Origin: Beroe forskalii
Lineage: Eukaryota; Ctenophora; Nuda; Beroida; Beroidae
Assembly (NCBI GenBank): GCA_011033025.1
Contig: WFMF01000210.1
Span: 62,001 to 126,000 of the forward strand
Direction: 5' to 3'
Length of the DNA: 64,000 bases
A model generated the notes under the pieces. It was not told the DNA's origin, made no database searches, and worked only from the letters and a program-made list of their open reading frames with translations. The translations under genes and the position numbers were made by a program. Each line of letters begins with the position of its first letter. Position 1 is the stretch's first letter. Shown piece by piece: positions 3,786 to 44,790 of the stretch.

Positions 3786-6700
3786 TTAACCCTTGGGGTT
3801 TCGCCCCCCCATTGGGGAGGGGTTCCCTTGGGGGGGAAAAACCCAGAAATTTTATCTGGTCATAAATCATTTAAGCCCAACCCTTGAACCCCTGATATTC
3901 CCCCTTTTTTTTTGTTTTCCTGAAATCCAAAAAAACCCTATTTTTACCCTCAAAACAGTGATCTGGGATGTTTTCATTTTGGGGCCAGATCCGAAACGAA
4001 AACTTTTTGGGCGAATGGGGGTTGAGCTGAAAATTTACGCCATCCTGGACGATGAAAGACATCCATGAATCCCAAAAAAACCCTTTTCTTTTTTATGGGG
4101 GGGTTAAAATCCGGTTTTGGGCTTAAAAAAGCCTTTTTTATTTTTTGGGTAACCCATGGGTGGTCAAAAAGAAGTGTATCGGTCAAAAACATGTGCCTTA
4201 AAACCCTTGAACCAATGATATTCGCCCAGTTTTCCTTTGTTTTTCCTGTAAAATCCAAAAAACCCTATTTTACCTCTCAAAACGGGGTCAGGATGTTTTT
4301 CATTTCTGAGCACCCCCGATCGAAAAAAAACTTTGATTGAGTAAAAATTCAGCCCTCCCTGAGACCAAAAAAGACATCCATACAGAATCCCCAAAAACAA
4401 TTTTCTGTCTGTTATGGGGTTAAAATCACGTTTTTTTAAAAAATGCCTTTTCGCCCCTTTTGGGGGGTAGATGCCCTGGTTCAAAAGAAGTGTATCTGGT
4501 AATAAATTATGCGCCTGAAACCACGAACCAATGATATTCGCCAGTTTTCCTTTGTTTTCCTGTAAATCCAAAAAACCCATTTTACCCTCAAAAAAGTGAT
4601 CCGGATGTTCTTCATTTTTGGGGACCAAAATCCGAAATCAAAACTTTGGGGGTTGAAAAATTTGCACCCATCCATGGGGCTAAAAAGACATAACCAGAAT
4701 CCCAAAACAATTTCTGTCGTTATGGGGTTAAAATCGAGTTTTCGGCTCAAAACTGCCTTTTTCGCCCCTTTTGTAGATGCTCATGGGGGGGTCAAATAAA
4801 TTATCGGTCATAAATCATACCCGAAAACCCCTAACCAATGATATTTTTTTCCTTTGTTTTCCCAAAATAAAAACCAATTTTTTCCTCCAAAAAAGGGTCC
4901 GGATTCTTCACAAACAGATCGAAACGAAAAAATTTGGGGGTTGAGGGAAAAAATTTTGGCCCTATGGGCGAAAAAGAAAAATACTTCAAATCCAAAACAG
5001 CCCTTTTTTGTCTGTTTGGGGGTTAAAATCGCGTTTTTTGGGTTAAAAAATGCCTTTTTTTTTGCCATTTTTGGGCAAAACCCTTTCAAATAGAATGTTC
5101 TGGTCTTTATGCCTAAAACCAGAAAATGATATTTCCCGTTTTCCTTTGTTTTCGCAAAATCCAAAAACCCTATTTTACCTCTCAAAAAAGTGATCCCGGG
5201 CGTTTTTCATTTCGAGGACCCAAGATCCAAACGAAAAAATTTGGGGGGGGAGTTGTTTTTCCCAAACCCTGGAACCCCGAAAAAACATACCATCTTGAAT
5301 GAAAAATTTTCTGTCTATGGGGGGGTTAAATCGTTTTAAAAAAGCCTTTTTTTGCCCTTTGGGGGGAAAGTTTTCCCTGGGTGGTCAAATAAAGTGTATC
5401 TGGTCTGCAAATCCATGTGCCTTAAACCATCAGACCAATGATATTCGCCAGGTTTCCTTTGTTTTCCTGTAAAATCCAAAAACCATGTTTACCTCTCAAA
5501 ACAGTGATCCAGGACGTTCTTGTTTTCACAGGAAAACTCTTAAGATCTGAAATCGAAAAACTTTTGGGCGATTGAGGCTGAAAATTTCCCGCCATCCATG
5601 TGGACGACCTAAGAAGACATATACTTCAAGTCGAAATCAGCCATTTTCTGTCTGTTATGGGGGTTAAATCGTGTTTTCGGCCAAAGCTGCCTTTTTTCGC
5701 CATTTATTGGGCGTAGATGTCTCATGGGTGGTTAAATAGAAGTGTATCTGGTCATAAATCATATGCCTGAAACCATTGGAACAATGATATTCGCCAGTTT
5801 TTCCTTTGTTTTTCCTGTAAAATCCAAAAACCCTATTTTACCTCTCAAACAGTGATCAGGATGTTCTTCATTTCTGAGGCACCCACGATCGAAATCGAAA
5901 AACTTTGGGCGAATGGGCGGTGGGCTGAAAATTTGCACGCCATCCATGGACGACTAAGAAAGACATACCATACTTCAGAATCCCGAAATCAGCCATTTTC
6001 TGTCTCATTTATGGGGGGTTAAAATCGCGTTTTTGGGCTTAAAAACTGCCTTTTTCGCCATTTGGGCGTGTCTGTGAAGGTCAAATGAAGGTATCTGGTT
6101 AAAAATCACCAATGATATTCGCCAGTTTTCCTTTGTTTCCTGTAAAATCCAAAAACCCTATTTTACCTCAAACAGTGATCCAGGATGTTCTTCATTTCGC
6201 TCTCAAACTTTTGCTGAATGGACGATGTCAGCCATTTTCTGTCTGTTATGGGGGGTTAAAATCGTAGATGTCTCATGGGTGGTCAAATAGAAGTGTATCT
6301 GGTAATAAATTATGCGCCTGAAACCACTGAACCAATGATATTCGCCAGTTTTACTTTGTTTTCCTGTAAAATCCAAAAAACCATATTTTTACCTCTCAAA
6401 ACAGTGATCCAGGACGTTCTTCATTTCTGAGGCACCCAAGATCTGAAATCGAAAAACTTTGGGCGATTGAGCTGAAAATTTGCACGCCATCCATGGACGA
6501 CCTAAGAAAGACATACCATACTTCAGAATCCCGAAATCAGCCATTTTCTGTCTGTTATGGGGGGTTAAAATCGCGTTTTTCGGCTTAAAAACTGCCTTTT
6601 TTCGCCATTTATTGGGCGTAGATGTCTCATGGTGGTCAAATAGAAGTGTATCTGGTCATAAATCATGTACGCCAAACCATCGAACCAATGATATTCGCCA

Positions 6701-8194
6701 GGTTTCCTTTGTTCCTGTAAAATCAAAAAACCATATTTTACCTCTCAAAACAGTGATCAGGACGTTCTTCATTTTCTGAGGCACCCACGATCGATATCGA
6801 AAACTTTGGGCGATTGGGCTGAAAATTTGCACCATCCATGGACGACCTAAGAAAGACACCATACTTCAAGAATCCGGAAATCAGCCATTTTCTGTCTGTT
6901 ATGGGGGGTTAAAATCGCGTTTTGGGCTTAAAAACTGCCTTTTTTCACTTCATTTATTGGGCGTAGATGTCTCATGAATTGGTCCAAATAGAAGTGTATC
7001 TGGTCATAAATCATGTGCCTTAAACCATCAGACCAATGATATTCGCCAGTTTTCCTTTGTTTTCCGTAAAATCCAAAAAACCCTATTTTTACCTCTCAAA
7101 ACAGTGATCCAGGACGTTCTTCATTTCTGAGGCACCCAAGATCCGAAATCGAAAAACTTTGGGCGATTGAGGCTGAAAATTGCACGCCATCCATGGACGA
7201 CCTAAGAAAGACATACAATACTTCCAGAATCCCGAAATCAGCCATTGTCTGTCTGTTATGGGGGTTAAATCACGTTTTCGGCTTAAAAACTGCCTTTTTT
7301 CGCCCTTGGGCATCGAATGTCTCAAGTGGTCAAATAGAAGTGTATCTGGTAATAAATTATGCGCCTGAAACCACTGAACCAATGATATTCGCCAGTTTTT
7401 CCTTTGTTTCCTGTAAAATCAAAAAACCATATTTTACCTCTCAAAACAGTGATCCAGGACGTTCTTCATTTCTGAGGCACCCAAGATCTGAAATCGAAAA
7501 ACTTTGGGCAATTGAGCTGAAAATTTGCACGCCATCCATGGACGACCTAAGAAAAAGACATACCATACTTCAAGTCCGAAATCAGCCATTTCTGTCTGTT
7601 ATGGGGGGGTTAAAATTGCGTTTTTCGGCTTAAAAACTGCCTTTTTCGCCATTTATTGGGCGTAGATGTCTCATGGGTGGTCAAATAGAAATTGTATCTG
7701 GTCATAAATTATGCCTGAAACCACTGAACCAATGATATTCGCCAGTTTTCCTTTGTTTTCCTGTAAAATCGAAAAAAACCCTATTTTACCTCTCAAAACA
7801 GTGATCCAGGACGTTCTTCATTTCTGAGGGCACCCAAGATCCGAAATCGAAAAAACTTTGGGCGATTGAGCTGAAAATTTACGCCATCCGAGGACGACCT
7901 AAAAAGACATACCATACTTCAGAATCCCGAAATCAACCATTTTCTGTCTGTTATGGGGGGTTAAATCGCGTTTTTCGGCTTAAAAACTGCCTTTTTCGCC
8001 ATTTATTGGGCGTAGATGTCTCATGGGTGGTCAAATAGAAGTGTATCTGGTCATAAATTATGCGCCCTGAAACCACTGAACCAATGATATTCGCCAGTTT
8101 TCCTTTGTTTTCCTAGCCAAAATCGAAAAAACCCTATTTTTACCTCTCAAAACAGTGATCCAGGACGTTCTTCATTTCTGAGGCACCCAAGATC
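3786..8194. repeat. ~355-bp satellite array, main block
   Basis: About a dozen head-to-tail monomers. Distortion fades from left to right and monomers after about 6200 agree closely. A monomer runs through ggcacccaagatccgaaatc, a ccatccatggacgacc block, gaaatcagccattttctgtc, tgggcgtagatgtctcatgg, aatgatattcgccagtttt and cctctcaaaacagtgatcc. Neighbouring monomers measured further right are spaced 354-357 bp. No coding potential is conserved. Function (centromeric, heterochromatic or none) cannot be read from sequence. Confidence 0.9.
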
Positions 8195-9970
8195 TTCGTT
8201 TCCATAAATGGTTAGCACGGTTAGCAGTGCTAATGGGAGGAAATTTTTTGATACTGGGAGGATTTTTTGAAATTGCCAAAAAATATTATTTAAAAAAATT
8301 ACAATAAGTTGCGTTCTTAGAAATAATTCCAGTAAAATTCATACAGTAGTAAACTAACTAATGCGTATGAAGTTATTGAAGCTATGAATGAAATATTGAT
8401 TATGAAGAGTACTTTCTAAGTTTGTTCCTATATGATTTAAATCGTCATCCCATCATATTAGAACATGTGCGAAATTTGTTCAATTTTTGTCTACAATTAC
8501 AAAGAGAGTAAAGTCCCTATCGAGGCTATAATTCAGTTTAATGTTCAAAATGTTTGGCTTCTGGGGCTGCTGCCCCCAGACCCCTACCCAATAGCTTATT
8601 TTCATCTCTGCTGACATTTATCATCATTAATAAGGGCCAAATACTTTGAAATTAGACTGAAATTACAGTAAAAATTCTATTCGGTTGAAAAACATTCAGC
8701 TTCTAGGTGCCGCCCCAAGACCCCCTCCTTCTGCATTTATTCTCATATCTGTACACACATATTCCGTTTCAGATACAGCCAACAGGTCAGACTGTCTGGC
8801 TTCTGGGGCTACTGCCCCCACACCCCTGCTCACTAGATTTAATTTCCATCTCTGCACACATTTTTCATCATAAATAAGGGTCAAATACTTTGAAATTAGA
8901 CTTAAATAAGAGTTAAAATCTTATTGAGATGATAATTTTATTAAGTTGAAAACGTCCAGCTTCTGGGGCTGCCGCCCCAGACCCCTACGTACTGGATTTC
9001 ATTATCATCTCTGTAAACAGTTTTCATTTCAAATACGGCCTACGGGCCAAGCAAATGCTTTGAAATCAGACTGAAATAAGAGTTTAAATCTTATTGAGAT
9101 GACAATTCTATTCGGTAAAAACGTCCAGCTTCTGGGGGCTGCCGCCCCCAGACCCCCATTCTGGATTTATTCTTATATCTGTAGAGACATATTCCGTTTC
9201 GAATACGGCCTGCAGGTCAAAACTATCTGGCTTCTGGGGCTGCCTTTGGACCCCTGCGTACTGGATTTCATTATCAACTCTGTAAACATTTTAATTTCGA
9301 ATACGGCCTACGGGCCAAGCAAATGCTTTGAAATTAGACTGAAATAAGAGTTTAAATCTTATTGAGATGATAATTCGATAAGGTTGAAAACGTCCCGCTT
9401 CTGGGGCTGCTGCCTTTAGACCCCTACGTACTGGATTTCATTATCATATCTGTAAACATTTTTCATTTCAAATACGGCCTACGGGCCAAGCAAATGCTTT
9501 GAAATTAGACTGAAATAAGAGTTAAAATCCTATTGAGATGACGATTCTATTTGGTTAAAAACGTCCAGATTCTGGGGGCTGCCGCCCCCAGACCCCTACT
9601 TACTAGTTTCAGTCTCATCTTTGTGGAATTCTTCATTTTAAAAACGGGCTAAATACTTTGAAATTATTCACAATTTTTAGTCAAATGAGCGAAAATCCTA
9701 TTGGTGAAAAGTTAATCTATTGAAAACGTCTGGCTTCTGGGGCTGCCGCCCCAGACCCCCGCAATCCACATACTGATATAGGATTAATTTATACTTGCTT
9801 CGGAAGACATTTTGTACCCCGAAATAAGACTGAAGTATAATTTAAAATCCTGTTAGTTCTGAGGGCTGCCGCCTCCATACGTCTGTTTCACTAGTTAGAA
9901 ATTCAATTTAAATTTACTGGGAGGATTTTAAATGCTGCTAATGGGAGGAAAAACCTTTTTGGAAGGCAAG
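8195..9970. mobile_element. 1.8-kb insertion in satellite with hairpin tandem array
   Basis: This block interrupts the satellite exactly: cccaagatc precedes it (8186-8194) and the same 9 bases follow it (9971-9979), as a target-site duplication would. Both ends carry the motifs ctaatgggaggaaa and tactgggaggatttt in the same orientation. The interior is about ten diverged units (see 8560-9880). There is no transposase frame, so if mobile it is non-autonomous. The superfamily is not clear; the outermost ~19 bp are only weakly inverted. Confidence 0.6.
8560..9880. repeat. ~100-170-bp units each carrying a GC stem-loop
   Basis: About ten diverged tandem units. Each contains a strong stem-loop, tctggggc-tgcc-gccccaga, followed by gacccct and, in many copies, tactggatttcattatca, aatacggcctacgggcc and gaaattagactgaaataag. 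Copies begin near 8569, 8700, 8799, 8960, 9129, 9231, 9399, 9569, 9733 and 9864. In some units the loop arms are degraded, for example 9399 and 9864. It forms the body of the insertion at 8195-9970. Confidence 0.8.
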
Positions 9971-11347
9971 CCCAAGATCCGAAATCGAAAAACTTTGGGC
10001 GATTGAGCTGAAAATTTGCACGCCATCCATGGACGACCTAAAAAAGACATACCATACTTCAGAATCCCGAAATCAACCATTGTCTGTCTGTTATGGGGGT
10101 TAAAATCGCGTTTTCGGCTTAAAACTGCCTTTTTCGCCAATTATTGGGCGTAGATGTCTCATGGGTGGTCAAATAGAAGTGTATCTGGTCATAAATCATG
10201 CACCTGAAACCACTGAACCAATGATATTCGCCAGTTTTCCTTTGTTTTTCCTGTAAAATCCAAAAACCCTATTTTTACCTCTCAAAACAGTGATCCAGGA
10301 CGTTCTTCATTTCTGAGGCACCCAAGATCTGAAATCGAAAAACTTTGGGCGATTGAGCTGAAAATTTGCACGCCATCCATGGACGACCTAAGAAAGACAT
10401 ACCACACTTCAGAATCCCGAAATCAGCCATTTTCTGTCTGTTATGGGGGGTTAAAATCGCGTTTTCGGCTTAAAAACTGCCTTTTTTCGCCTTTTTATTG
10501 GGCGTAGATGTCTCATGGGTGGTCAAATAGAAAGTGTATCTGGTCATAAATCATGCACCTGAAACCACTGAACCAATGATATTCGCCAGTTTTCCTTTGT
10601 TTTCCTGTAAAATCCAAAAAACCCTATTTTTAACTCTCAAAACAGTGATCCAGGACGTTCTTCATTTCTGATGAGGCACCCAAGATCCGAAATCGAAAAA
10701 CTTTGGGCGATTGAGCTGAAAATTTGCACGCCATCCATGGACGACCTAAGAAAGACATACCATACTTCAGAATCCCGAAATCAGCCATTTTCTGTCTGTT
10801 ATGGGGGGTTAAAATTGCGTTTTTGGGCTTTAAAACTGCCTTTTTTCGCCATTTATTGGGCGTAGATGTCTCATGGGTGGTCAAATAGAAGTGTATCTGG
10901 TCATAAATCATGTGCCTTAAACCATTGAACCAATGATATTCGCCAGTTTTCCTTTGTTTTCCTGTAAAATCCAAAAAACCCTATTTTTACCTCTCAAAAC
11001 AGTGATCCAGGATGTTCTTCATTTCTGAGGCACCCACGATCCGAAATCGAAAAACTTTGGGCGATTGAGCTGAAAATTTGCACGCCATCCATGGACGACC
11101 TAAGAAAGACATACCATACTTCAGAATCCCGAAATCAGCCATTTTCTGTCTGTTATGGGGGGTTAAAATCGCGTTTTTGGGCTTAAAAACTGCCTTTTTT
11201 CGCCATTTATTGGGCGTAGATGTCTCATGGGTGGTCAAATAGAAGTGTATCTGGTCATAAATCATGCACCTGAAACCACTGAACCAATGATATTCGCCAG
11301 TTTTCCTTTGTTTTCCTGTAAAATCCAAAAAACCCTATTTTTACCTC
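9971..11347. repeat. ~355-bp satellite, second block
   Basis: Nearly four well-preserved monomers resuming in phase after the 8195-9970 insertion. The ctattttta landmark recurs at 10269, 10624, 10981 and 11335, giving 354-357 bp spacing. Confidence 0.92.
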
Positions 11348-14556: not shown

Positions 14557-15470
14557 TACCTCTCAAAACAGTGATCCAGGACGTTCTTCATTTCTGAGGC
14601 ACCCAAGATCCGAAATCGAAAAACTTTGGGTGATTGAGCTGAAAATTTACGCCATCCATGGACGACCTAAGAAAGACATACCATAGCAGAAAGTCCCGAA
14701 ATCAGCCATTTTCTGTCTGTTATGGGGGGTTAAAATCGCGTTTTTGGGCTTAAAACTGCCTTTTTCGCCATTTATTGGGCGTAGATGTCTCAAGGGTGGT
14801 CAAATAGAAGTGTATCTGGTCATAAATCATGTGCCTTAAACCATTGAACCAATGATATTCGCCAGTTTTCCTTTGTTTTCCTGTAAAATCCAAAAAACCC
14901 TATTTTTACCTCTCAAAACAGTGATCCAGGACGTTCTTCATTTCTGAGGCACCCAAGATCCGAAATCGAAAAACTTTGGGCGATTGAGCTGAAAATTTGC
15001 ACGCCATCCATGGACGACCTAAGAAAGACATACCATACTTCAGAATCCCGAAATCAGCCATTTTCTGTCTGTTATGGGGGGTTAAAATCACGTTTTTCGG
15101 CTTAAAACTGCCTTTTTTCGCCCCTTATTGGGCGTAGATGTCTCATGGGTGGTCAAATAGAAGTGTATCTGGTCATAAATTATGCGCCTGAAACCACTGA
15201 ACCAATGATATTCGTCAGTTTTCCTTTGTTTTCTCGTAAAATCCAAAAAACCCTATTTTTACCTCTCAAAACAGTGATCCAGGACGTTCTTCATTTCTGA
15301 GGCACCCAAGATCCGATATCGAAAAACTTTGGGCGATTGAGCTGAAAATTTGCACGCCATCCATGGACGACCTAAGAAAGACATACCATACTTCAGAATC
15401 CCGAAATCAGCCATTTTCTGTCTGTTATGGGGGGTTAAAATCGCGTTTTTGGGCTTAAAAACTGCCTTTT
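14557..15470. repeat. ~355-bp satellite, third block
   Basis: About 2.6 monomers, well preserved and in phase with the block that ends at 11347. They end within the actgcctttt landmark where the LTR-like insertion begins. Confidence 0.9.
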
Positions 15471-21765: not shown

Positions 21766-21918
21766 CTAGCCATCAAGTTTCCTGGTGTCAGTGTATGTAC
21801 TAAAGTAATTATTTGATTTAACTATTTAAATCTGAATGTAACGCTAAGAAAATTAAGCGGAACTACGTCAGCCTCATCGAACACACTGCTTCATGATTTA
21901 TAATACTGTTAATTTATC

Positions 21919-24846
21919 ATTTATGTTAATTCTTTCACTGTTACTATGTCATTGCTGACCAGCAGCCTTTGCCTTCGAATACAGTTTCTTTATATTAATT
22001 CTATACATTTACGCTAAAAACTATAGATTGATTTAGTGCAATTGCGGAAATTGTATTTGTTATTGAATTTGTGAAATCTGAAACTTCATTAGTTCATTGA
22101 GTGTAGTATTTGTGTGGTTCTTTTAAGTTGCCCCATTTCCAACAAAATACCTTGATATCTTTCACCCTTAGCTCAGTGGGGATAGCAGGGAATCGAACCC
22201 GGGAACTTTTGATCACGATTCAGAATTGATACCATTACCATTTCCACCAATTGCTGACCACCTATTCCCAGCAGAACATGGCCGTTCCAACAGTACTTGT
22301 CTCCAGACTATCCCTCCTCATGGTGCTGATTCACTTCAATGTGGCTGTCCTGAACGAGACGAACCTGTTCGTGAAAGAAGGTACATATGTTCTTTTAACT
22401 TGGTAATACCTTCTCACTTTTAACTTGGTAATGCCTCCTCACTTTAAGAGCCGTGTACGTAAATCTCGAACAGTGCGAGGGCGTTAGATGTCTCTCAAAG
22501 TGATCTACGAAGTTTTTTGTTATAACTTATGACGCCTTCCTTCTAATTTCTTATTCTCCACGCTAACCAATTCTCTGCACAAATGTTCTCACTGCTTCTG
22601 GCAGTTAGGTACTATCGGTAATTTTGCTGAGTATCTTTGTGTCTTATTTTCATTCCAAGGTTAAAGGTTTTTGGGTTCATAATCAAATGCCAGATTAAAA
22701 TTTTGGCATAGATTGAAATATTTTCTCTTTCAGGAAAGTACATGTTTGCATTCGTTGATCGTGATTCCGCATCGCATGCCCATGTATTACAAAACATGAT
22801 GACTTTCCAGTTCACTGTCAAGACTTACGGGAATCTGGCAAGTAAGGGTAAGTTTCTAACTTCTTTAAAGGAATATTTCAAAGGAATATTTCCAGTTGTT
22901 AAGGAAGACAGAAAATTTGGAAGATGTTCTTTACGTCAATTCATTCCATATCCAGTAAATGCCGTCTAAAATATGATCCGTCTTAATGACTCAGGGTGTT
23001 TTTTAAATTCATTGAAGTCCCGGAAGTCACTATCAAATTCCGGTAACTTGACACTTTCCGAGACCAGGCCCTTTTTTGACCTCAGAATAAAGGAATTTTT
23101 GATGGAAATCACTGAAGAGTGATTAAATGGCAATAAGGCATGATTTTCCCAATCCTTATTAATCTCCAGGAGCTGTCAATGTTGGGGATGTCGGATACGT
23201 TATCTACATCCCAGAGGACTTCACGCTAGTTTCTGATACCCTCACTGTTCTCGACAAGTACCCGAACATCATAGCCTTCTTCGGACCCAGATCCTCGTTC
23301 ATGGCTCTAAGCATCGCTTCTCTCCTCTCTAACTTACGGTTTGCACTCAGTACAGAGTATGGAGGTGGCGTGTTTATTTCATTCATTTTTGATCGCGATG
23401 TATTGTCAATTTATGTTATCTGCAAAACTTTCATTCTAACCCATATAATATGTGTACATGCATCGATCGCTGAATGGATTGATTCAGCGCATTTTCAGTG
23501 CACGCATTACACTTTTCATACTTTCATGGAATTTTTTATCTAAATTACAGATTTTTTACGTGTTTTATCGATCGATCCATGGGCACACATAATTTGGGTA
23601 ACTACTTAACTAGGGCCAAAATCTTGTGACAGGATTCCCACATTCGTGTATGGATCTTCAGTACTGGTGGACTACACCCTCGAATTGTTTGAGTGGCGGT
23701 ACGTGTTGCCCATGACTGCAACAGCAACTAAACAAGTCGAAACAGTCATTCCCATGTGAGTTGGAGTGTTGGACATGATCTCATCGGAGCTCATGAGATT
23801 ACACTCCGAAAATTCGTATGATTAGTTTTAAAATCCCTTATTGGCCTTTCTTTAGCCGGCCTTTTTTTAACCGGCCCTTCGGACAAAAATCTCAAAGTCG
23901 TTTTCGTCCTTAACTAGGTCCGGTTACAGAAAGGCCTATAAGGCATTCGAATGATTGACTCATTCCATCAATATTAAAAGAAGACTTCATTAGGCTTCAT
24001 TATCAAAAATTATCAGGATTAGATATAACTATCGAAAACTAAATATTTATAGTCTACTTCAATTTATGATGAAGTGTATGGCTTTGATATAAATATAGAT
24101 GACGAATGAGACGCTACCTAATTACTCACATGAACACTTGACAGTTTTTGCTAACATGTGTGCTGAATGGTGGCCAACCCTTCGATTTCCAGATCGTACG
24201 GGTAAATATGGCATGCTCATTTCCTAATTCAGGTTTTATTAACTATGACAACCCTGCAGGTTAGTTACAGACACCAGAGCTAACGCTGTTGTGGTGATAG
24301 CAGACGATACAGACTACGCTCAGACCCAACTTCCAATTCTCATCAGATCTCTGAAATCCTCCCACATCACCACCCTTTTACAACTAAACATTCCCGAAGA
24401 CATTGCAGCGGATGAGGAATTCATGCCAGATCTATTAGGAGAGCTGGACGAAGCAACAAAACAAAACAGAACCTTCACCATAGTATTTCTAGCGTTATCT
24501 CGTTCAATACCAAAGGTAAGTTTCCAATTCAAATGACTGGCAAGAATGAGATTATGCCGAAATGCCTGATTAAATATCTTCATAATTTGAGGCAGAAATC
24601 TGAGGCAGAAATTATCAGTGCCCATAGTGAAATGAAAGAAAAGTTACAAAAACAGTACTATTGGCAGGTACTATCAGCAATTGAAGAGCAAGCTAAACAC
24701 TTGGAACCTTACACCATCCTGGCCCTGACCAGTACCCAAGGATGCATAGCGGAGTATGATGGCAGCAGCAACGCAGATATTAACATGATTAAGATGTGTC
24801 AGACCTACCATTCCATCGCGGAGCTGGAGAACTACTTCCAGAACAT
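21919..24846 (+). repeat. 2.9-kb tandem duplication unit, upstream copy
   Basis: From ttatgttaattctttcactg (about 21919) to the middle of receptor exon 6 (24846), this matches 24847 to about 27740 nearly base for base, introns included. The spacing between aligned points is about 2899 bp. At the junction, exon 6 (cttccagaacatt...) fuses to the unit start (...catttatgttaattc), sharing catt, a 4-bp microhomology. The high similarity of introns indicates a recent event. Confidence 0.9.
22278..24846 (+). pseudogene. Partial upstream copy of class C GPCR (exons 1-6)
   Basis: Six exons matching the first six of the downstream receptor: 22278-22380 (signal peptide, MAVPTVLVSRLSLLMVLIHF), 22734-22847, 23170-23371, 23633-23755, 24260-24515 and 24668-24846. 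Splice sites and phases match the intact copy. All six exons are open and encode about 300 residues of the extracellular Venus-flytrap (ANF-receptor-type) domain. Exon 6 is cut by the duplication junction. Reading through adds a short unrelated tail ending at a stop near 24916. Differences from the other copy are few (for example IPED versus ISDN, and FLALSR versus FLAKSR). It may be a dead fragment, a secreted truncated domain, or an alternative 5' cassette, because exon 5 ends in phase 0 and could splice to the intact exon 6 at 27560. Confidence 0.75.
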
Positions 24847-25174
24847 TTATGTTAATTCTTTCACTGTTACTATGTCATTGCTGTTTCTTCATTTTGATTC
24901 TATACATTTACGCTAAAAACTATAGATTGATTTAGTGCAATTGCGGAAATTGTATTTCTTATTGAATTTGTGAAATCTGAAACTTCATTAGTTTATTGAG
25001 TGTAGTACCTATTTGTGTTGTTCTTTTGAGATGCCCATTTCCAACACAATACCTTGGTATTTTTCACCCTTAGCCCAGTGGGGATAGCAGGGAATCGAAA
25101 CCGGGATCTTTTGAGTTTTGATCACGATTCAGAATTGATACCACCAATTACTGACCACCTATTTCCAGCAGAAC
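24847..25174. repeat. Start of the downstream duplication unit
   Basis: The second copy of the 2.9-kb unit begins here with ttatgttaattctttcactg and serves as 5' flank of the intact receptor. It lacks about 25 bp present in the upstream copy after cattgctg. The start codon environment (cagaacATGgcc) is identical in both copies. Confidence 0.8.
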
Positions 25175-28100
25175 ATGGCCGTTCCAACAGTTCTTGTCTC
25201 CAGACTATCTCTCCTCATGGTCCTGATTCATTTCAATGTGGCTGTCCTGAACGAGACGAACCTGTTCGTGAAAGAAGGTACATATGTTCTTTTAACTTGG
25301 TAATACCTTCTCACTTTTAACATCTCACTTTGAGAGCCGTGTACGTAAAGCTCGAGCAGTGCGAGGGCGTTAGATGTCTCTCAAAGTGATCGATGAAGTT
25401 ATTTGTTATAACTTATGACGCCTTCCTTCTAATTTCTTATTCTCCACGCTAACCAATTCTCTGCACAAATGTTCTCACTGCTTCTGGCAGTTACTATCGG
25501 TAATTTTGCTGAGTATCTTTGTGTCATAATTTCATTCCAAGGTTTAAGGTTTTTTGGGTTCATAATCAAATGTCAGATTAAAATTTGGCATAGATTGAAA
25601 TATTTTCTCTTTCAGGAAAGTACATGTTTGCATTCGTTGATCGTGATTCCGCGTCGCATGCCCATGTATTACAAAACATGATCACTTTCCAGTTCACTGT
25701 CGAGAATTACGGGAATCTGGCAAGTAAGGGTAAGTTTCTAACTTCTTAGGAATATTTCAAAGGAATAATTCCAGTTGTTAAGGAAAACAGAAAATTTGGA
25801 AGATGTTCTTTACATCAATTTATTCCATATCCAGTAAATGCCGTCTAAAATATGATCCGTCTTAATGACTCAGGGTGTTTTATAAATTCATTGAAGTCCC
25901 GGAAGTCACTATCAAATTCCGGTAACTTGGCACTTTCCGAGACCAGGCCCTTTTTTGACCTCAGAATAAAGGAATTTTTGATGGAAATCACTGAACTCTG
26001 AAAAGTGATAAAATGGCAATAAGGCATGATTTTCGTAATCTCTATTAATCTCCAGGAGCTGTGAATGTTGGGGATGTCGGATACGTTATCTACATCTCAG
26101 ACAACTTCACGCTAGTTTCTGATACCCTCACTGTTCTCGACAAGTACCCTAACATCATAGCCTTCTTCGGACCCAGATCCTCGTTCATGGCTCTAAGCAT
26201 CGCTTCTCTCCTCTCTAACTTAAGGTTTGCACTCAGTACAGAGTATGGAGGTGGCATGTTTATTTCATTTATTTTTGATTGCGATGTATTGTCAATTGAT
26301 GTTATCTGCAAAACTTTCATTCTAACCCATATAATATGTGTACATGCATCAATCGCTGAATGGATTGATTCAGCGCATTTTCAGTGCACGCATTACACTT
26401 TTCATACTTTCATGGAATTTTTTATCTAAATTACAGATTTTTACGTGTTTTATCGATCGTCCCATCATGGGCACACATAATTTGGGTAACTAGGGCCAAA
26501 ATCTTGTGACAGGATTCCCACATTCGTGTATGGATCTTCAGTACTGGTGGACTACACTCTCGAATTGTTTGAGTGGCGGTACGTGTTGCCCATGACTGCA
26601 ACAGCAACTAAACAAGTCGAAACAGTCATTCCCATGTGAGTTGGAGTGTTGGACATGATCTCATCGGAGCTCTAGAGATTACACTCCGAAAATTCGCATG
26701 ATTAGTTTTAAAATCCCTTATTGGCCTTTCGTTAGCCGGCCTTTTTTAACCGGCCCTTTGGACAAAAATCTCATTTTCGTCCTTAACTAGGTCCGGTTAC
26801 AGAAAGGCCAATAAGGTATTCGAATGATTGACTCATTCCATAAATAACAAAAGGTGACTTTATTGTTAGGCTTCATTATCAAAAAGTATCAGGATTAGAT
26901 ATAACTATCGAAAACTAAATATTTATAGTGTACTGCAATTTATGATGAAGTGTATGGCTGAGATATAAATATATATGACGAATGAGACCCTACCTAATTA
27001 CTCACATCATGAGATCATGAACACTTGACAGTGATCGTTAACATGTGTGGCGTGTGCTGATTGGCGGCCAACCCTTAGATTTCCAGATCTTACGGGTAAG
27101 TATGGCATGCTCATTTCCTAATTTAGTTTTTTTAACTATGACAACCCTGCAGGTTGGTTACAGACACCAGAGCTAACGCTGTTGTGGTGATAGCAGACGA
27201 TACAGACTACGCTCAGACCCAACTTCCAATTCTCATCAGATCTCTGAAATCCTCCCACATCACCACCCTTTTACAACTAAACATTCCCGAAAACATTGCA
27301 GCAGATGAGGAATTCATGCCAGCTCTATTGGGGGAGCTGGATGAAGCAACAAAACAAAACAGAACCTTCACCATAGTATTTCTAGCGAAATCTCGTTCAA
27401 TACCGAAGGTAGGTTTCCTATTCAAATGACTGGCAAGAATGAGATTATGCCGAAATGCCTGATTAAATCTTCATAATTTGAGGCAGAAATCTGGCTATGA
27501 CACATCATCAGTGCCCATAGTGAAATGAAAGAAAAGTTACAAAAACAGCAATGTTGCAGGTACTATCAGCAATTGAAGAGCAAGCTAAACACTTGGAACC
27601 TTACACCATCCTGGCCCTGACCAGTACCCAAGGATGCATAGCGGAGTATGATGGCAGCAGCAGGGCGGATATTAACATGATTAAGATGTGTCAGACCTAC
27701 CACTCCATCGCTGAACTGGAGACCTACTTCCAGAACATTGAGTTCTGGAACAGTGAGGGGGTTCCCGTGAACCCCATTCTACATCACAAGATAGTGGAGG
27801 GGGGATGGTGTGAGGTGGGGAATAACAGCTGTGTGTCTGACACGGTGTTACAGAATCTCTCCGCTTCTCGCAGGCAAGGATGTACTAAATACATACCAAA
27901 TCCGTCAAAAATACAACGAATTTCCTTTCGAAGAAAATTTTGAAATACGGCAGTTTCTGCCAAAAAATACGTAACATATTTTTTAACTATTCAAAAAAAG
28001 GGTACATATTTAACAACCTTCATGCCCGCAGGTACTCAGCGTACAACCACCGGATCTATTACGCTGTCCGGGCAGCCCTCAACGTCCTGGATTCCAAGAG

Positions 28101-31100
28101 AGATGACCTGGACTTCCTGGAAGAGTTGTCAGGGCATGTGGAAGGAGGTTTGTAGAGACACGTAGGGTTTCAAAAGTTTTTTAAACGCTTGTTTTACGCA
28201 CTTCCCATTGTCCGATTTTCATGAAGCTTGGTAATATCGTGCACTTTATAATGACATTAAGAGAATTGCCAAAATTTTTAATCAAATGATCGTTTTAACC
28301 CAATTCGTCCCATGCGTCTTCACCAGGTGAGGAGGATGAGGTGATAGCTCCGCGGAATTCTGATAATTTCATGGCAGCGTTCAAGGTCGAATCGACGGAG
28401 TTTACGTATGGGTTGCAGTTCAATGAGTCGAAGAAGGACTCTAATCCGGCGTTGAATGTGGATCTGTACTACAATAAGGTGCAGTTGCCGTCGTGGATGG
28501 AGGGGTCCAAGGACAACGCTCAGATCACGGATTACTTGCAGAGGTGAGGAGGCGGTATTCAAGAAGTGAGGAGGAGGAGGAGAGGAGGAGGAGGAGGAGG
28601 GGAGGAGGAGGAGGGGAGGAGGAGGAGGAGAGGAGGAGGGGAGGAGGAGGAGGAGGAGGAGGAGGAGGAGGAGGAGGAGGAGGAGGAGGAGGAGGAGGAG
28701 GAGGAGGAGGAGGAGGAGGAGGAGGAGGAGGAGGAGGAGGAGGAGGAGGAGGAGGAGGAGGAGGAGGAGGGAGGAGGAGGAGAGGGAGGAGGAGAGGGAG
28801 GAGGAGAGGGAGGAGGAGGAGAGGGAGGAGGAGGAAGAGGAGGAGGGAGAGGAGGAGGAGGAGGAGGAGGAGGAGGGGGAGGAGGAGGAGGAGGAGAGGA
28901 GGAGGAGGAGGAGGAGGAGGAGGAGGAGGAGGATTAGAGGGAGGAGGAGGAGAGGGAGGAGGAGAGGGAGGAGGATGAGAGGGAGGAGGAGGAGGAAGAG
29001 GAGGAGGGAGAGGAGGAGGAGGAGGAGGAGGAGGAGGAGGAGGAGGAGGGTGAGGAGGAGGAGGAGAGGGAGGAGGAGGAGGAGGAGGGTGTTCAGGGTA
29101 TTTGATTAGAGAAAATTTTAGATTCATGCGACATTTCAGAAGTGATGTTTAGGATGTTCACGCAGTATTTTAAAGCTTAGAATATTTGATTGCGTAGCTT
29201 TGGAGTCATGACATAAATTGACATTCATATTTTCTTTTAAAAACACAATCATGAGCGTCGTCATATTTGCTTATTACTCAGTTTCTAACCCTGCAATTTC
29301 CAGTCGCATCTCGGAATACCCCACGAGAATGGAATGCAGTAAGGAATGCAGCCCGGGAACCTACCAGGCCACCATATACGGCACTCAGCACTGCTGGACC
29401 TGCACTAAGTGCGCAGGTAGGTGGCTGAAAACCAGCAGTGTCACGTTAGGAAGGACGTGTCTGCATATAATCCATAATCAATCATCGATAATCAATAATC
29501 GATCATGCAGCGATTTTAGCTCAATATCTGAGATCTCCATTGATCTAAACTTTCATGAAACCGATCTTAACTGGTTTTTTACACAATATTACCTCAAAAG
29601 CAACATGATCGCGGAATCTCATATAACTATCAGTGTCGTTACAGGCAACAAAGTGTCGAATGTAACTAACGCCAAAGAATGTGTGGAATGCGACGACCTG
29701 ACATGGACCAATGTGGACAGGACTAACTGCTCCGTCCTTCCCACGAGTCTCAGTCTCACCGGGGACCCGCATGGACGGGTGATACTGGGCCTGGTTATCG
29801 TGTCGAGTGCTGTCATCTTCTTAACTTTCGGTATAAATGTACTTATTTTATTCACTTATTATTCACATTGCCAGCCCCACCGTGGGTTTTCAAACAAAGG
29901 TAAGTTGGAGTAGAGCCTCCTCACATTTACTCAATCTTAGCATAGGTGTCATGATTTGATGATAAAGTCCCTGGACTCGATATCATATATTTATATCAAC
30001 ATTCAAGGCCCCCAAATTCTTGTCCACACATAACTAATGAATTGAAGTATTATTTGATAATATAATAATATTATTCGATACTAATTAGTAATTGTTGTTA
30101 GATTATATGATTAGTTATTACTAAATTGTCAGGTTTCTATGTGTACCTGTGGAAGAGTGTGGTGATCATAGCTTCAGGCCGGGATCTGGCAGTCTTCATG
30201 TTCCTAGGAATGGTCTGTGGCCTGGCTAACGCCGCCCTCATTGCTTCCAAACCTGGTAAATAGCTCATGAATTTCATGAAATATAATATATATTTCAATT
30301 GTAAGAGCCGGTAGAATTCATGTTATTTAAAGCTTTCAAGCGCTCATCCAAAGTTCCATTTTATATGGACCAATCAGTGCGTGAGTTACTTTCTAACTCG
30401 CGCGCTGATTGGTTAATGGCTGATGACGAGGACACGATGAAATGTTGAGTTATAAGCAGTCAGGTATGCCCGGCGTCTCGAGCAAATTTATAGTTTAATA
30501 GTTTATTGCTAATTGCCGCAAAGAAGCTGTTACATTTTTACTATACATCAAACATCAAACTGTTACTCGTTTTGCGACAAAATCACCAACATTCTTCCAT
30601 GAATTTGCATCAAAACTTCCAGTGATTGTCTACTCTAGCGACTTACAAATAGGTCATTAATATCGAACTTAACAATACCTATAAGTATGATTACTTAATT
30701 AACTAGCAATTATTCTTCATCAAAAATACAAATGAAAAAATAATTTACGCACAGGTGTAGCAGTGTGTACAGGCATAGAAGTCCTATCTCACCTCATGGT
30801 AATCCTCATCCTGTCTCCTCTTTTCGTCAGAACACTCAGAATCCTCGTTATCTTCAAATTCGCTGTAACCAAGAAACATCTTGTGTCGTGAGTATACTCC
30901 TGAAATACATGCGATATTTTGGGGAGAGACTGAGAGAAAATGGAAATTGTTAATTCCATCCGGTGACTGCTAATCGTGACAAAATAATCATGAAAATAAG
31001 GCAAGACGATTTGTTAGATTCTAATCACCAATTCCTGTCTGCAGGTACGTTAGCAAACAAAACATCTACATCATTATGTTCGTAGTGTCCATCCCGGTAA

Positions 31101-32522
31101 TTGGATCCTTCATAGCAACAACCTCCATCGAAGATTACAGGTAACAGGAATTTTGATTAAAACCTTGGACAAATCCTCAACTTATAACAACACAAAAACA
31201 TGTCTGCGGCGCACAGACATGTTATCTCATGTCTATACGCCGTAGAAACGTGAGCCGTGCACAACGTCATTTTGAACTGTTATGGTGTGTGAAAAGATGG
31301 GGATCTTTCCGAATCACCAAATCACAACCTCGACAGGTACAAGGAAACGAACAACATGGTGAACTACCTGGACCCTGACATGCTGATCAACACCTCGTGG
31401 ACCTTGACATGCTCCTGTTAAGTTCTGATAGGCACCTCCTGCATCGCCCTCATGGGCTTTACCCTGAGAACTACAAGGTGAGTGTAAGGTTTCAGAAAAC
31501 CCGGAGGAAATACCGTATTTCTTAATCTTACCGTTTAATATCAACAATTAGTACGCGTAAACAATTGATCATGGGCTTCTACACGAGCAAGCTTCCCGAA
31601 AACTACAAGGTGAGTGTAAGGTAGGGTTTCAGAAAACCCGGAGGAAAATACCGTATTTCTTCTTGTTTAATATCAAGGATTTAGTAGGCGTAAACCATTG
31701 AATTCGTAAACCATTGATCATGGGTTTCTACATAAGGAAGCTCCCTGAGAACTCCAAGGTACAACTACAAGGTACAAGCCGTGAAGTCTTATTTGCATAT
31801 ATTATGACAACGTGCAACATACAATAAATACTGCAAACATCGGTTTTGTAATCCAAGGATCACAGAGAAGAGAATTAATCTGAGTGGGGGGGAGTGTGAT
31901 CAGGAGATTTATAATTCTTCCTACTCTTGCAGGAAACCATGCACATCCTACTGTGCTCCCTGATAACACTGGCCTTGGTGGCTTCCAGTGTACCTGCACT
32001 ACTACTCCTGCCAGGCAAAAACCAGGTGAGATTCAGCACACAGCATACCATGCTGCTTCTCCTCCTATTGTACACTGTGTATCATGCTGTCAGCACACAG
32101 CATGGTACGCAGTATGCAATAGGAGGAGAAAATCACATGCTCGTAATTATTCACTGCACGATCGCAGTCGTAAAAAACGATATGATGCAGTTTTTGAGCC
32201 AATTCTGTAATTATATCTTCCCCGGACCGAGGAATGAATCTAGTCATTAAATTGTTGTGGTGACATAGATTCAAGTAAACTTTTAGAAATATATTTTCGT
32301 ATATTTCAGGTATTCTCCCTGGCACTCATCGTGTGCATTCTGCCGCTCACCATCAACATCGTTATCTTCTTCCCCAAGATATACGTGTGTCTGAGGTACC
32401 CTGATGAAAAGTTCCAGGCCCAACGCAGCAGTATCCGACAGTCCATCAACAACCACTCCATTACTCACCGTTTAAACAGCATCGACAGTACCTACAATAA
32501 CAAAACCACACCGGACACCTAA
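25175..32522 (+). CDS. Class C GPCR (mGluR/GABA-B-like), 16 exons, lesion in TM5 exon
   Basis: Exons: 25175-25277, 25616-25729, 26056-26257, 26513-26635, 27153-27408, 27560-27873, 28032-28147, 28327-28543, 29304-29416, 29645-29899, 30133-30255, 30755-30887, 31045-31140, 31337-~31482, 31933-32025, 32310-32522. Phases agree throughout, except at the exit of the 14th exon. Order: signal peptide; Venus-flytrap ligand domain (exons 2-8); cysteine-rich NCD3G stretch (exons 9-10, CSKECSPGTYQ, HCWTCTKC, ECVECDDLTW); seven helices (TM1 GRVILGLVIVSSAVIFLTF, ASGRDLAVFMFLG, ... VFSLALIVCILPLTINIVIF); a short tail after FFPKIYVCL, ending at TAA 32520. ENYK before TM6 and PKIY after TM7 are class C hallmarks. 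The glutamate-binding signature of true mGluRs is not recognisable, so the ligand is unknown. Exon 14 has an in-frame TAA and a frame-shifting gap (separate entry), so this copy may be a pseudogene or may contain sequence errors. Confidence 0.85.
27874..28031 (+). other. Probable GC-AG intron in the receptor
   Basis: Exon 6 ends ...tctcgcag and is followed by gcaagg; the next exon begins after cccgcag. Joining there gives SASR-RYSAYNHRIYYAV in a continuous frame (phase 2). No GT donor nearby gives that phase. CAG|GCAAG matches the known consensus of the minor GC-AG intron class. Confidence 0.7.
28549..29096. repeat. ~550-bp (GGA)n polypurine tract in receptor intron 8
   Basis: Almost uninterrupted GGA/GAG triplets with occasional extra G or single T, lying wholly in the intron between exons ending at 28543 and starting at 29304. 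The long glycine, glutamate/arginine or proline/leucine frames across it are artefacts of the repeat. Such polypurine mirror repeats can form triplex (H-DNA) structures, and the true length is likely to vary. Confidence 0.95.
31337..31765 (+). other. TM5 exon with stop codon and tandem partial copies
   Basis: The exon entering at 31337 reads YKETNNMVNYLDPDMLINTS and then meets TAA at 31419-31421, just before the TM5 residues VLIGTSCIALMGF. Its end, from atgggctttac, lacks 13 bases relative to a second copy at 31571 (MGFYTSKLPENYK before gtgag) and a third at 31720 (MGFYIRKLPENSK). Copies 2 and 3 repeat only the exon end plus the following intron (~120-150 bp units) and lack an acceptor. Only the longer version gives the phase 0 needed for the next exon (ETMHILLCSLITL). 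Confidence 0.75.
32058..32131. repeat. ~74-bp inverted repeat in receptor intron 15
   Basis: ttctcctcctattg is answered by caataggaggagaa about 45 bp later, with further imperfect pairing between (accatgctg and cagcatggt). It is a hairpin just downstream of the exon ending at 32025. Confidence 0.7.
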
Positions 32523-43350: not shown

Positions 43351-43619
43351 ATAGCATAAACATGCCTGGAAGGTGCATAATGTGATATTACACACTCGGG
43401 CCTTCGGCACTTGTGCGTGATATCCCGGTTTGCACTTTTTACTCGTTACTAAACCCTTCATTTTACATTTGCTCTGCTGATTTGCCCTGCTGCCTTTCTT
43501 CACATTTTATTCATATTTGATTAATAACAACTTGCTTAATTATAACATTGGAAAAGATTTTTCATCTAAACGAAAACGTTGATATTTTATGGTAGTGAGC
43601 ATGACATTGATTATTTCAG

Positions 43620-44790
43620 GGATGCTTTGCAGCTTTTTGATGTTGATACCGAGTTACCTATCCTCTTAAGCAGTTCTTTTTCATTGAATCGAGGGGAATT
43701 TGAAATCCAGCAGAGATTACTGTCAAGAACGGTGGACCCTGCCTTCAATGCCCCGTTGTCAACAAAATATAAAACAATTATCCTAGTGATGTCATTCAGG
43801 ACTGGCTCCACTTTCATGGGTGAAGTGTTTAACCAAAATCCAAATATCTTATATGATTTTGAGCCATTTCATTTTGGGGGCATGAAACACAAAAAAGGAA
43901 AAGGGGTTTATGAAGGGGAGAACCAAAGGCATACAGATCATGAACTGAATATGCTATACTTACAGCAAATATTGAAAAATTGCAGTATCATCCAGAATGC
44001 TTTTGGCAAATTTCCTCACAAACACTGGTGCTGTGGTAACGAAGAGGAAAATTTAGAACTATTTGGTCAAGAAACATGCTATGAAGCTCCAGATGACCCA
44101 GCCAAAGTGAGATCAATTAGACAATACCTTTGTAAGAGAAGGAATGCAGTGGCGTTGAAGGTTATTCGTTTGCGGAGGTTAAAAGATTTGGACCTTATCA
44201 GAAACATTCAAAGTGCTGATGTTAGAGTGATACATGTTCTTCGAGATCCAAGAGGTATGTTTGGATCCCGATCTGGTTTCCCAGATATATTTTATACAAT
44301 GAAGTATCAGTTACGCTGGACAAATCATCTGGATGAAATGCACAAACTTGGACTTGAGGCTCTTTCAGAGTGTCAAAAGTTTTTGGATGACATAGAATAT
44401 GCTGAAAATAGTCCATGGCTGAAAAATCAGTATTTACAAGTAGAGTATGGATCAATGGCAGAGGATTATCAAAAGTTGATAAAAAATATTCACAAATTCA
44501 TCAACGAACCATTGACAGAGGTGGTGATGAAACATTTTGAACAGTCAGTCAATTCAGAGGAAGTATCAAATCGAAATAATTCAGTGACAAATGATTATGG
44601 TAGAGGTGGGGCTTTGGACACATTTAAAAACTCAGCAAAAGTAAACGAAAAATGGCTTCATTGGAGAATCAAGGGAATCAGACTTGTAGACAAGCATTGC
44701 TATAGACTAATTAAAAGAATGAATTGGCCTTTATTAGTTGATCATTTGGGTGACAACTTTGAATATAGACCCATTAACAATATAGTATGA
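43620..44790 (+). CDS. Carbohydrate sulfotransferase, terminal exon (partial)
   Basis: An open frame of ~390 codons ending at TGA 44790. It carries both PAPS-binding motifs of Golgi carbohydrate sulfotransferases of the CHST1-7 (6-O-sulfotransferase) type: the 5'-phosphosulfate loop VMSFRTGSTFMGEVFNQNP with DFEPFH after it (nt ~43786-43866), and the 3'-phosphate motif VRVIHVLRDPRGMFGSR (nt 44221-44271). The enzyme transfers sulfate from PAPS to sugar hydroxyls of glycans. No ATG opens this frame before the catalytic motif. A good acceptor, gattatttcag|g at 43619, shows this is a 3' exon entering in phase 2. The cytosolic tail and signal-anchor helix must lie on an upstream exon not identified here. 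Catalytic residues are intact, so it could be functional. Confidence 0.88.

Follow-up and report, generated by a model that had tools for sequence, protein, structure and literature searches.

A class C receptor gene of the ctenophore Beroe forskalii has its first six exons present twice, which raises the question of whether the two sets act as alternative 5' cassettes on one shared receptor body, as an initial annotation had proposed. The locus lies on contig WFMF01000210.1 (assembly GCA_011033025.1), in a stretch of 64,000 nucleotides referred to here as the window. Judged from the DNA, the duplication is real in the assembly and appears mostly ordinary; cassette use stands as a hypothesis.

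The Duplicated Unit and Its Junction

A repeat search and an end-to-end alignment reveal a direct tandem duplication of 2.9 kb, in which the class C GPCR gene is present twice from its first exon to the middle of exon 6 (Table 1). The alignment of copy A with copy B comprises 2733 identities, 115 mismatches and 130 gap columns, i.e., 95.96% identity without gaps, which confirms the duplicated receptor exons initially described; this resemblance is not due to chance. The two copies are direct and adjacent, with one breakpoint within the gene, as in a partial tandem duplication. Since this breakpoint falls inside exon 6, the native donor of exon 6A is gone, in line with the truncation already noticed at this place.

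Table 1. Features of the receptor locus (positions within the window).
Feature	Position	Strand	Basis
Copy A of duplicated unit, from 360 bp 5' of start codon into mid exon 6	21918..24847	+	repeat search, alignment
Copy B of duplicated unit, from 331 bp 5' of start codon to equivalent exon 6 point	24844..27739	+	repeat search, alignment
CATT, four bases common to both breakpoints	24844..24847	+	overlap of repeat families D8/D20, alignment
Dispersed SINE-like element just 5' of exon 1, also in copy B	22147..22238	.	alignment
Exon 1A, start codon and apparent signal peptide	22278..22380	+	exon model
Exon 2A	22734..22847	+	exon model
Exon 3A, donor ACG/GTTTGC, weaker than AAG/GTTTGC of 3B	23170..23338	+	exon model, donor scores
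Exon 4A	23633..23755	+	exon model
Exon 5A, ends in phase 0	24260..24515	+	exon model
Exon 6A, cut at junction, native donor lost	24668..24847	+	exon model, donor scores
Exon 1B	25175..25277	+	exon model
Exon 2B	25616..25729	+	exon model
Exon 3B	26056..26224	+	exon model
Exon 4B	26513..26635	+	exon model
Exon 5B	27153..27408	+	exon model
Exon 6B, complete, GC donor CAG/GCAAGG	27560..27873	+	exon model, donor scores
Exons 7-8, end of Venus-flytrap region	28032-28147, 28327-28543	+	exon model
Exons 9-10, cysteine-rich NCD3G and TM1	29304-29416, 29645-29830	+	exon model, domain search
Exons 11-13, helices by eye	30133-30255, 30755-30887, 31045-31140	+	exon model, domain search
Exon 14, TM5 by eye, in-frame TAA 31419-31421	31337..31477	+	exon model
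TM5/ICL3 exon tail, two additional tandem copies (match starts 31567 and 31716)	31552..31760	+	
Exons 15-16, TM6, TM7 and tail by eye	31933-32025; 32310 to TAA 32520-32522	+	reading frames

The same picture could be produced during assembly, if two haplotypes about 4% apart had been laid end to end, with no duplication in the animal. The divergence and the low omega (see below) resemble allelic variation. When 181 bases of exon 6 were searched against the same assembly, the two matches (two candidates, both scored) were copies A and B of this contig, and the lack of close off-contig matches for both exon 6 and the protein is expected if both haplotypes were consumed here. Several features of the junction argue against this origin. 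The whole window, junction included, is free of N, and a scaffolding join should show Ns, because the sole gap in a sample of the assembly is a run of 100 N; four shared bases are, moreover, too short for an overlap join. This sample (14 pieces of 10 kb, 140 kb, chosen and not random) contains no comparable adjacent two-copy unit: its direct pairs of at least 300 bp lie in repeat arrays (six pieces), apart from one separated 577-bp pair (84.6%; L047). An assembly artefact is considered unlikely.

Exons, Splice Sites, and the Predicted Product of Copy A

All six exons of copy A are open, with GT donors kept in exons 1A-5A and AG acceptors in exons 2A-6A, so that the initial description of intact upstream exons holds. 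Exon 1A does carry its own start codon; the signal peptide attributed to it is apparent, by eye only. Ends of exon 3 at 23364 and 26250 were rejected, and those at 23338 and 26224 accepted. Exon phases are equal in A and B. Exon 5A leaves in phase 0 and exon 6B enters in phase 0, as previously pointed out and now verified from the exon phases; the repeated unit fits the constant exons in this respect, as in a cassette gene, and the phases would permit splicing of 5A to 6B and of every kA to (k+1)B onto the one body.

GT sites that could replace the lost donor of the cut exon are weak. By donor scores, of which the order alone is meaningful, the best GT in 24668-25174 (the GT of its own acceptor excluded) reaches -0.8; of the 20 donors in the gene model 18 score higher, the exceptions being those of exons 3A and 10; a single GC donor candidate follows the start of exon 6A, at position 24688 (score 1.5). 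Read-through from exon 6A meets a TAA at 24914-24916, in agreement with the initial annotation, for a predicted product of 337 residues.

This open frame, with its start codon and apparent signal peptide, speaks for copy A alone encoding a secreted decoy domain. Its ANF_receptor match scores 44.3 bits and extends to position 285 of the 353 in the profile, no worse than that of the B protein (42.5 bits, to position 298), and a natural relative devoid of the seven helices is known, the SmGBP of Schistosoma (PMC3206071). However, the receptor sequence proper of A stops at residue 315, and read-through supplies the final 22 residues. Of the B protein, the product would lack the segment between residue 316 and the cysteine-rich domain (at 481), including the ligand-domain exons 7-8, and the first AATAAA or ATTAAA 3' of the junction is found at 25577, 661 bases beyond the stop. 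Use of this frame as a secreted decoy seems extremely improbable.

Divergence between the Two Copies

The A and B proteins differ at 11 of 315 residues, in agreement with the handful of differences announced for the two ligand lobes, and residues 90-216 are identical. The coding change (dN 0.018, dS 0.091) corresponds to an omega of 0.20 (bootstrap 0.08-0.45), and indels are absent from 945 coding positions, compared with 25 in 1903 noncoding ones (P 0.002 if A alone were neutral). Whether copy A looks constrained depends on the yardstick. With synonymous sites as the measure, neutrality of A is rejected (P 2e-4); on the intron yardstick, the 13 non-synonymous changes are close to the 15.3 expected if A evolved neutrally while B stayed frozen (P 0.34), and A may be neutral. 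Synonymous sites diverge about twice as much as introns. Restrained coding change would look alike if two alleles had been joined by unequal exchange, and the mildly over-dispersed divergence along the unit (chi2 23.1, 11 df, p 0.017) fits an allelic or converted history.

These values bear directly on the possibility of functional alternative cassettes, in which A and B, each with its own promoter or entry, would be spliced to exon 6B to give two regulated forms. Apart from the fitting phases, the 5A donor scores above that of 5B (8.5 vs 5.9), and copy A is open, with a low omega and no coding indels. An acceptor-like TTCCCAG or TTTCCAG lies immediately 5' of both start codons, and could admit an upstream exon or a spliced leader into either copy. 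Chelicerate sDscam offers a precedent, with 5' cassettes arrayed in tandem before a common body (PMC4835542). Yet there are two near-identical copies only, with the long identical segment noted above, the non-synonymous changes fit a neutral A by the intron measure, and the shared body contains a stop codon. Nothing in the DNA sequence itself shows a choice between the A and B cassettes. Of the original proposal, the compatible phases stand, while the identical segment and the interrupted body weigh against it, and such regulated use appears quite unlikely.

The Shared Receptor Body

The B protein matches ANF_receptor (Venus-flytrap) with 42.5 bits against a cut-off of 25.4 (residues 85-394, profile to 298) and NCD3G with 39.6 bits against 38.9, the cysteine-rich domain lying at 481. 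The 7tm_3 match (48.3 bits, cut-off 33.5) covers profile positions 5-141 of 251 only, up to the TAA of the TM5 exon. Exons 15-16 (TM6 and TM7 by eye) searched separately matched no Pfam family, 7tm_3 included, the TM4-5 piece by itself likewise had no match to 7tm_3, and an exon-by-exon 7tm_3 search of the same assembly listed 10 places, none of them on contig WFMF01000210.1. An end of exon 10 at 29899 was rejected in favor of 29830. The stretch following TM1 (residues 572-593 of a 711-residue query) was likewise rejected as receptor sequence and taken for a dispersed repeat; with this wrong stretch the 7tm_3 score was 29.3 bits, below the cut-off, and it rose to 48.3 bits without it. Searched against the assembly, the 711-residue query had 49 matches, 19 of them on this contig; 26 of the 30 others overlap residues 572-593 and are thus not taken as a sign of relatives. 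The best solved relatives, CaSR and mGlu, are remote (lowest phmmer E 1e-8, over query residues 479-673, with the model before correction). The 64-kb window has no Rfam match at the gathering threshold and no tRNA.

Two defects of the shared body had been overlooked initially, namely the in-frame TAA at 31419-31421 and a 13-nt deficit in the TM5 exon. Exon 14 lacks these 13 nt relative to a downstream tandem copy of its own tail, and hence ends in phase 2, whereas entry into exon 15 calls for phase 0; with the tail copy at 31552 counted as an exon, the phases would agree once more. The tail of the TM5 exon forms a second, smaller intragenic tandem duplication, and a long GAG array lies in the intron 3' of exon 8.

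The whole locus could accordingly be a decaying pseudogene, the duplication being one of several neutral scars, a reading compatible with partial duplication. It would explain the stop codon, the phase mismatch, the recurrent tandem scars of the TM5 exon and the GAG array. The remaining exons of B and of the body are nevertheless open, with consistent phases up to exon 14, and the coding difference between A and B is restrained. The lone TAA might reflect an error in the consensus or represent one segregating allele, and the tail copy might restore the phases. General decay is judged somewhat unlikely.

Proposed Origin of the Two Copies

We tend to favor, with slightly more confidence than doubt, a partial tandem duplication in which break-and-join copied the 5' half of the receptor gene, the low coding change coming from an allelic past or from leftover constraint. 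The joining would have used the four shared bases, with the right end inside exon 6. Copy B, continuous with the receptor body, would be the gene, and copy A an incomplete upstream copy retaining the native upstream flank. Because B has just 331 bp of duplicated 5' flank, the native promoter may sit on the A side. RNA begun there would reach the body by omitting exon 6A, through 5A-6B or another kA-(k+1)B join, whereas RNA begun within the duplicated flank of B would use B alone; the product would be a nearly identical receptor whichever start is used. A and B may have been alleles for much of their divergence, put in tandem by unequal exchange, unless the restraint is left over from earlier function; a selected choice between two ligand lobes would be a poorer account of the restrained coding difference. 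No second haplotype was found among ten class C loci (L003-L012) compared pairwise, the only matches being overlaps among three same-contig loci, and one of the ten (L004), compared with the assembly (40 of 1979 candidates scored), matched a dispersed palindromic repeat only.

Plain partial tandem duplication accounts for everything seen, save the synonymous divergence about twice that of introns. Two further observations go against it: copy A may still be in use, given its lack of coding indels, and the TAA at 31419 leaves room for the whole locus dying. As seen, the locus adds one case to the known partial tandem duplications. It serves mainly as a warning that gene models may merge A with B or separate them at this place, and that the receptor body, as assembled, has a stop codon.

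Comparison with Known Systems

The Beroe receptor has the same order of ANF_receptor, NCD3G and 7tm_3 as other class C GPCRs (CaSR, mGlu, T1R), but it is remote from CaSR and mGlu, with an interrupted TM5 exon. The titles and abstract starts of the literature matches listed, which leave out most of the hits, name no class C receptor with tandem 5' cassettes, and this is no proof of absence; a narrower search, on alternative promoters and tandem duplications of exons in these receptors, had no match, and the main text of a Styela clava class C receptor paper, as far as available (PMC9138782), contains neither "exon" nor "splic". The SmGBP of Schistosoma mansoni, a truncated mGlu-like protein, resembles the hypothetical A product in having a ligand domain without seven helices; unlike it, SmGBP comes from a separate full-length transcript with demonstrated glutamate binding, according to the accessible part of the report (PMC3206071).

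A close match for the favored origin comes from Drosophila yakuba, where tandem duplications capture partial genes, as here, and can yield chimeric structures with exon shuffling; expression was measured in that work (PMC5460883), whereas the Beroe locus, with copies 4% apart, is known from DNA alone. UGT1 and the clustered protocadherins also have repeated 5' coding units able to join one constant exon set, but these are arrays of variable first exons, each with a promoter in UGT1, instead of a multi-exon unit in two copies (PMC1885805, PMC3325998, both from excerpts). In chelicerate sDscam, as the available text describes it (PMC4835542), multi-exon 5' cassettes precede a shared body with phases allowing several joins, as in Beroe; sDscam has tandem cassette arrays with alternating promoters, documented by RNA, in contrast to two near-identical copies seen in DNA, the upstream one cut within its last exon. 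A newborn cassette gene, with 5A routinely spliced past the cut exon 6A to 6B and two ligand-domain versions on one body, would be a first step on a path such as that leading to sDscam-like arrays, a prospect that we consider very doubtful. If the A-to-B junction were used, the locus would offer a young example of how 5' cassette arrays begin, in a receptor class without such a case among the literature matches listed.

Organization of the duplicated unit

The first six exons of the receptor gene are indeed doubled, as the initial annotation proposed, in a 2.9-kb unit present in two copies in direct orientation, on a 295,571-base contig of a 216 Mb assembly. Aligned end to end, copies A and B agree at 2733 positions and mismatch at 115, with 130 gap columns (95.96% identity without gaps). 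Copy A starts in noncoding DNA, 360 bp 5' of its start codon, and the right end of the unit falls within exon 6, which is truncated in copy A as had been described, with loss of its native donor.

Joining of two haplotypes into one contig during assembly looks an improbable origin of the pair, since the junction contains no N and a mere four bases are common to both breakpoints, although the divergence of A and B resembles that of alleles and no other contig gave a close match. For comparison, 14 pieces of 10 kb were sampled, chosen rather than random, two of them flanking the window; they contain a single gap, of 100 consecutive N. Direct pairs of at least 300 bp were found within repeat arrays in 6 of the 14 (L046, L053, L054, L055, L057 and L058), one separated 577-bp pair (84.6%) in L047, and none in the other seven.

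Features of the locus and of other elements (window positions unless another contig is named)
Feature	Position	Remark
Tandem pair	21918-27739	A, 21918-24847; B, 24844-27739
Junction	24844-24847	CATT
SINE-like element	22147-22238	~92 bp, also in the matching part of B; dispersed across the assembly (40 of 309 first-look candidates scored); tRNA B-box-like stretch, judged by eye
GC site	24688	donor score 1.5
Read-through stop of A	24914-24916
First AATAAA/ATTAAA past junction	25577
GAG array	28568-29088	long, in intron after exon 8
Start of intron after TM1	29831-29899	open reading; part of a dispersed repeat
Exon 14 (TM5)	31337-31477	phase 2 out
TAA	31419-31421	in the frame set by upstream exons
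Repeats of TM5 exon tail	31567; 31716	second small intragenic tandem duplication
Exon 15	31933-32025	phase 0 in
Arrays, with breaks	4167-11347; 14557-15470	unit ~312-354 bp
Single long ORF	43570-44787	sulfotransferase domain (46.9 bits)
Array on contig C536	~306552 to 323549; 327011-327884 after a gap	unit ~353 bp, copies up to 98-99% alike
Palindromic dispersed element (L004)	C41:2341-2581	~245 bp; L004 as query gave 1979 first-look candidates, 40 scored

The receptor and its shared body

Exons 1B-14, joined as far as the stop, encode a predicted 715-residue protein with ANF_receptor (42.5 bits), NCD3G (39.6) and 7tm_3 (48.3, profile positions 5-141 of 251) in that order, which identifies the gene, by its predicted domains, as a class C receptor. 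The best solved relatives are calcium-sensing and metabotropic glutamate receptors, found with a query model in which some sequence following TM1 was incorrect. The intron start at 29831-29899 is overlapped by 26 of the 30 off-contig matches of the first protein query.

A hydrophobic stretch directly follows the TM5 exon stop in the same frame, and the first tail of this exon lacks 13 nt relative to the nearer repeat. If the tail copy beginning at 31552 served as an exon, the frame would by phase be restored, with the stop still present. The interruption may reflect an error, allelic variation or genuine decay. It matters because a choice of cassettes would be idle on a body unable to make a receptor.

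Divergence of the two copies

Ligand lobes differing at a handful of residues had been anticipated, and 11 of 315 residues differ (57, 64, 65, 87, 88, 89, 217, 227, 249, 290 and 310). Residues 90-216 are identical; they include the GPRSS and YGSS segments, which are putative counterparts of mGlu ligand-contact loops. A weak match of this region to T1R2 (E 0.045) is consistent with this assignment.

The proposed comparison of coding changes gave 19 synonymous and 13 non-synonymous differences (dN 0.018, dS 0.091, omega 0.20, 0.08-0.45). Each of the 25 indels lies outside coding sequence, and 20 have lengths not divisible by three; 6.2 coding indels would be expected if A alone were neutral (P 0.002). 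The synonymous yardstick predicts 30.9 non-synonymous changes (P 2e-4) and the intron yardstick 15.3 (P 0.34), a disagreement arising because synonymous sites are about twice as diverged as introns (8.6% vs 4.2%, Fisher P 0.010). These patterns suggest that A may have stayed under constraint once duplicated; they are fitted as well if most differences arose as alleles that unequal exchange then joined.

Splicing and the limits of copy A

Exons 1-5 have the same phases in both copies, and the upstream exons are open, with GT donors kept in 1A-5A and AG acceptors in 2A-6A. Exon 5A ends in phase 0, as 6B requires; these points of the initial annotation all hold. Joins from each A exon to the next B exon are likewise phase-compatible, and splicing of 5A to an acceptor-like site before exon 1B would also keep the frame, judged by eye.

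For exon 6A, the best GT in 24668-25174 (the GT of the exon's own acceptor excluded) scores -0.8, under 18 of 20 gene-model donors, on a base-frequency scale of which only the order is meaningful. A weak donor may nevertheless exist, since those of exons 3A (-2.0) and 10 (-3.5) score lower still. Read-through of A gives 337 residues and stops where predicted. Its receptor sequence ends at residue 315, ahead of exons 7-8, and A is considered incomplete because everything between residue 316 and the cysteine-rich domain is missing. The Pfam match by itself gives no sign of this loss (44.3 bits to ANF_receptor position 285 for A; position 298 for B).

Because the native 5' flank is retained by A, and just 331 bp of it is present in B, RNA from a promoter further upstream would have to run through A, then skip to 6B, pass from an A exon to the next B exon, or enter B via the acceptor-like site that precedes B's start codon. 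Transcripts started within the duplicated flank would use B. The likely outcome is a single, nearly unchanged receptor, with A as a by-product. The phases would permit alternative splicing of A or B exons 1-5 onto the shared body, but this proposal is judged improbable: the TM5 stop, the loss of the 6A donor and a ligand-domain core that does not differ between the copies all weaken it.

Comparison with known systems

A class C relative without seven helices is on record (PMC3206071). Chelicerate Dscam has multi-exon 5' cassettes on a common body, where promoters alternate and splicing is mixed (PMC4835542); the present locus would be at most similar to it in its working. In Drosophila yakuba, exon-shuffling partial tandem duplications change expression (PMC5460883); the present locus is a partial tandem duplication like these, and this is the sole membership established for it.
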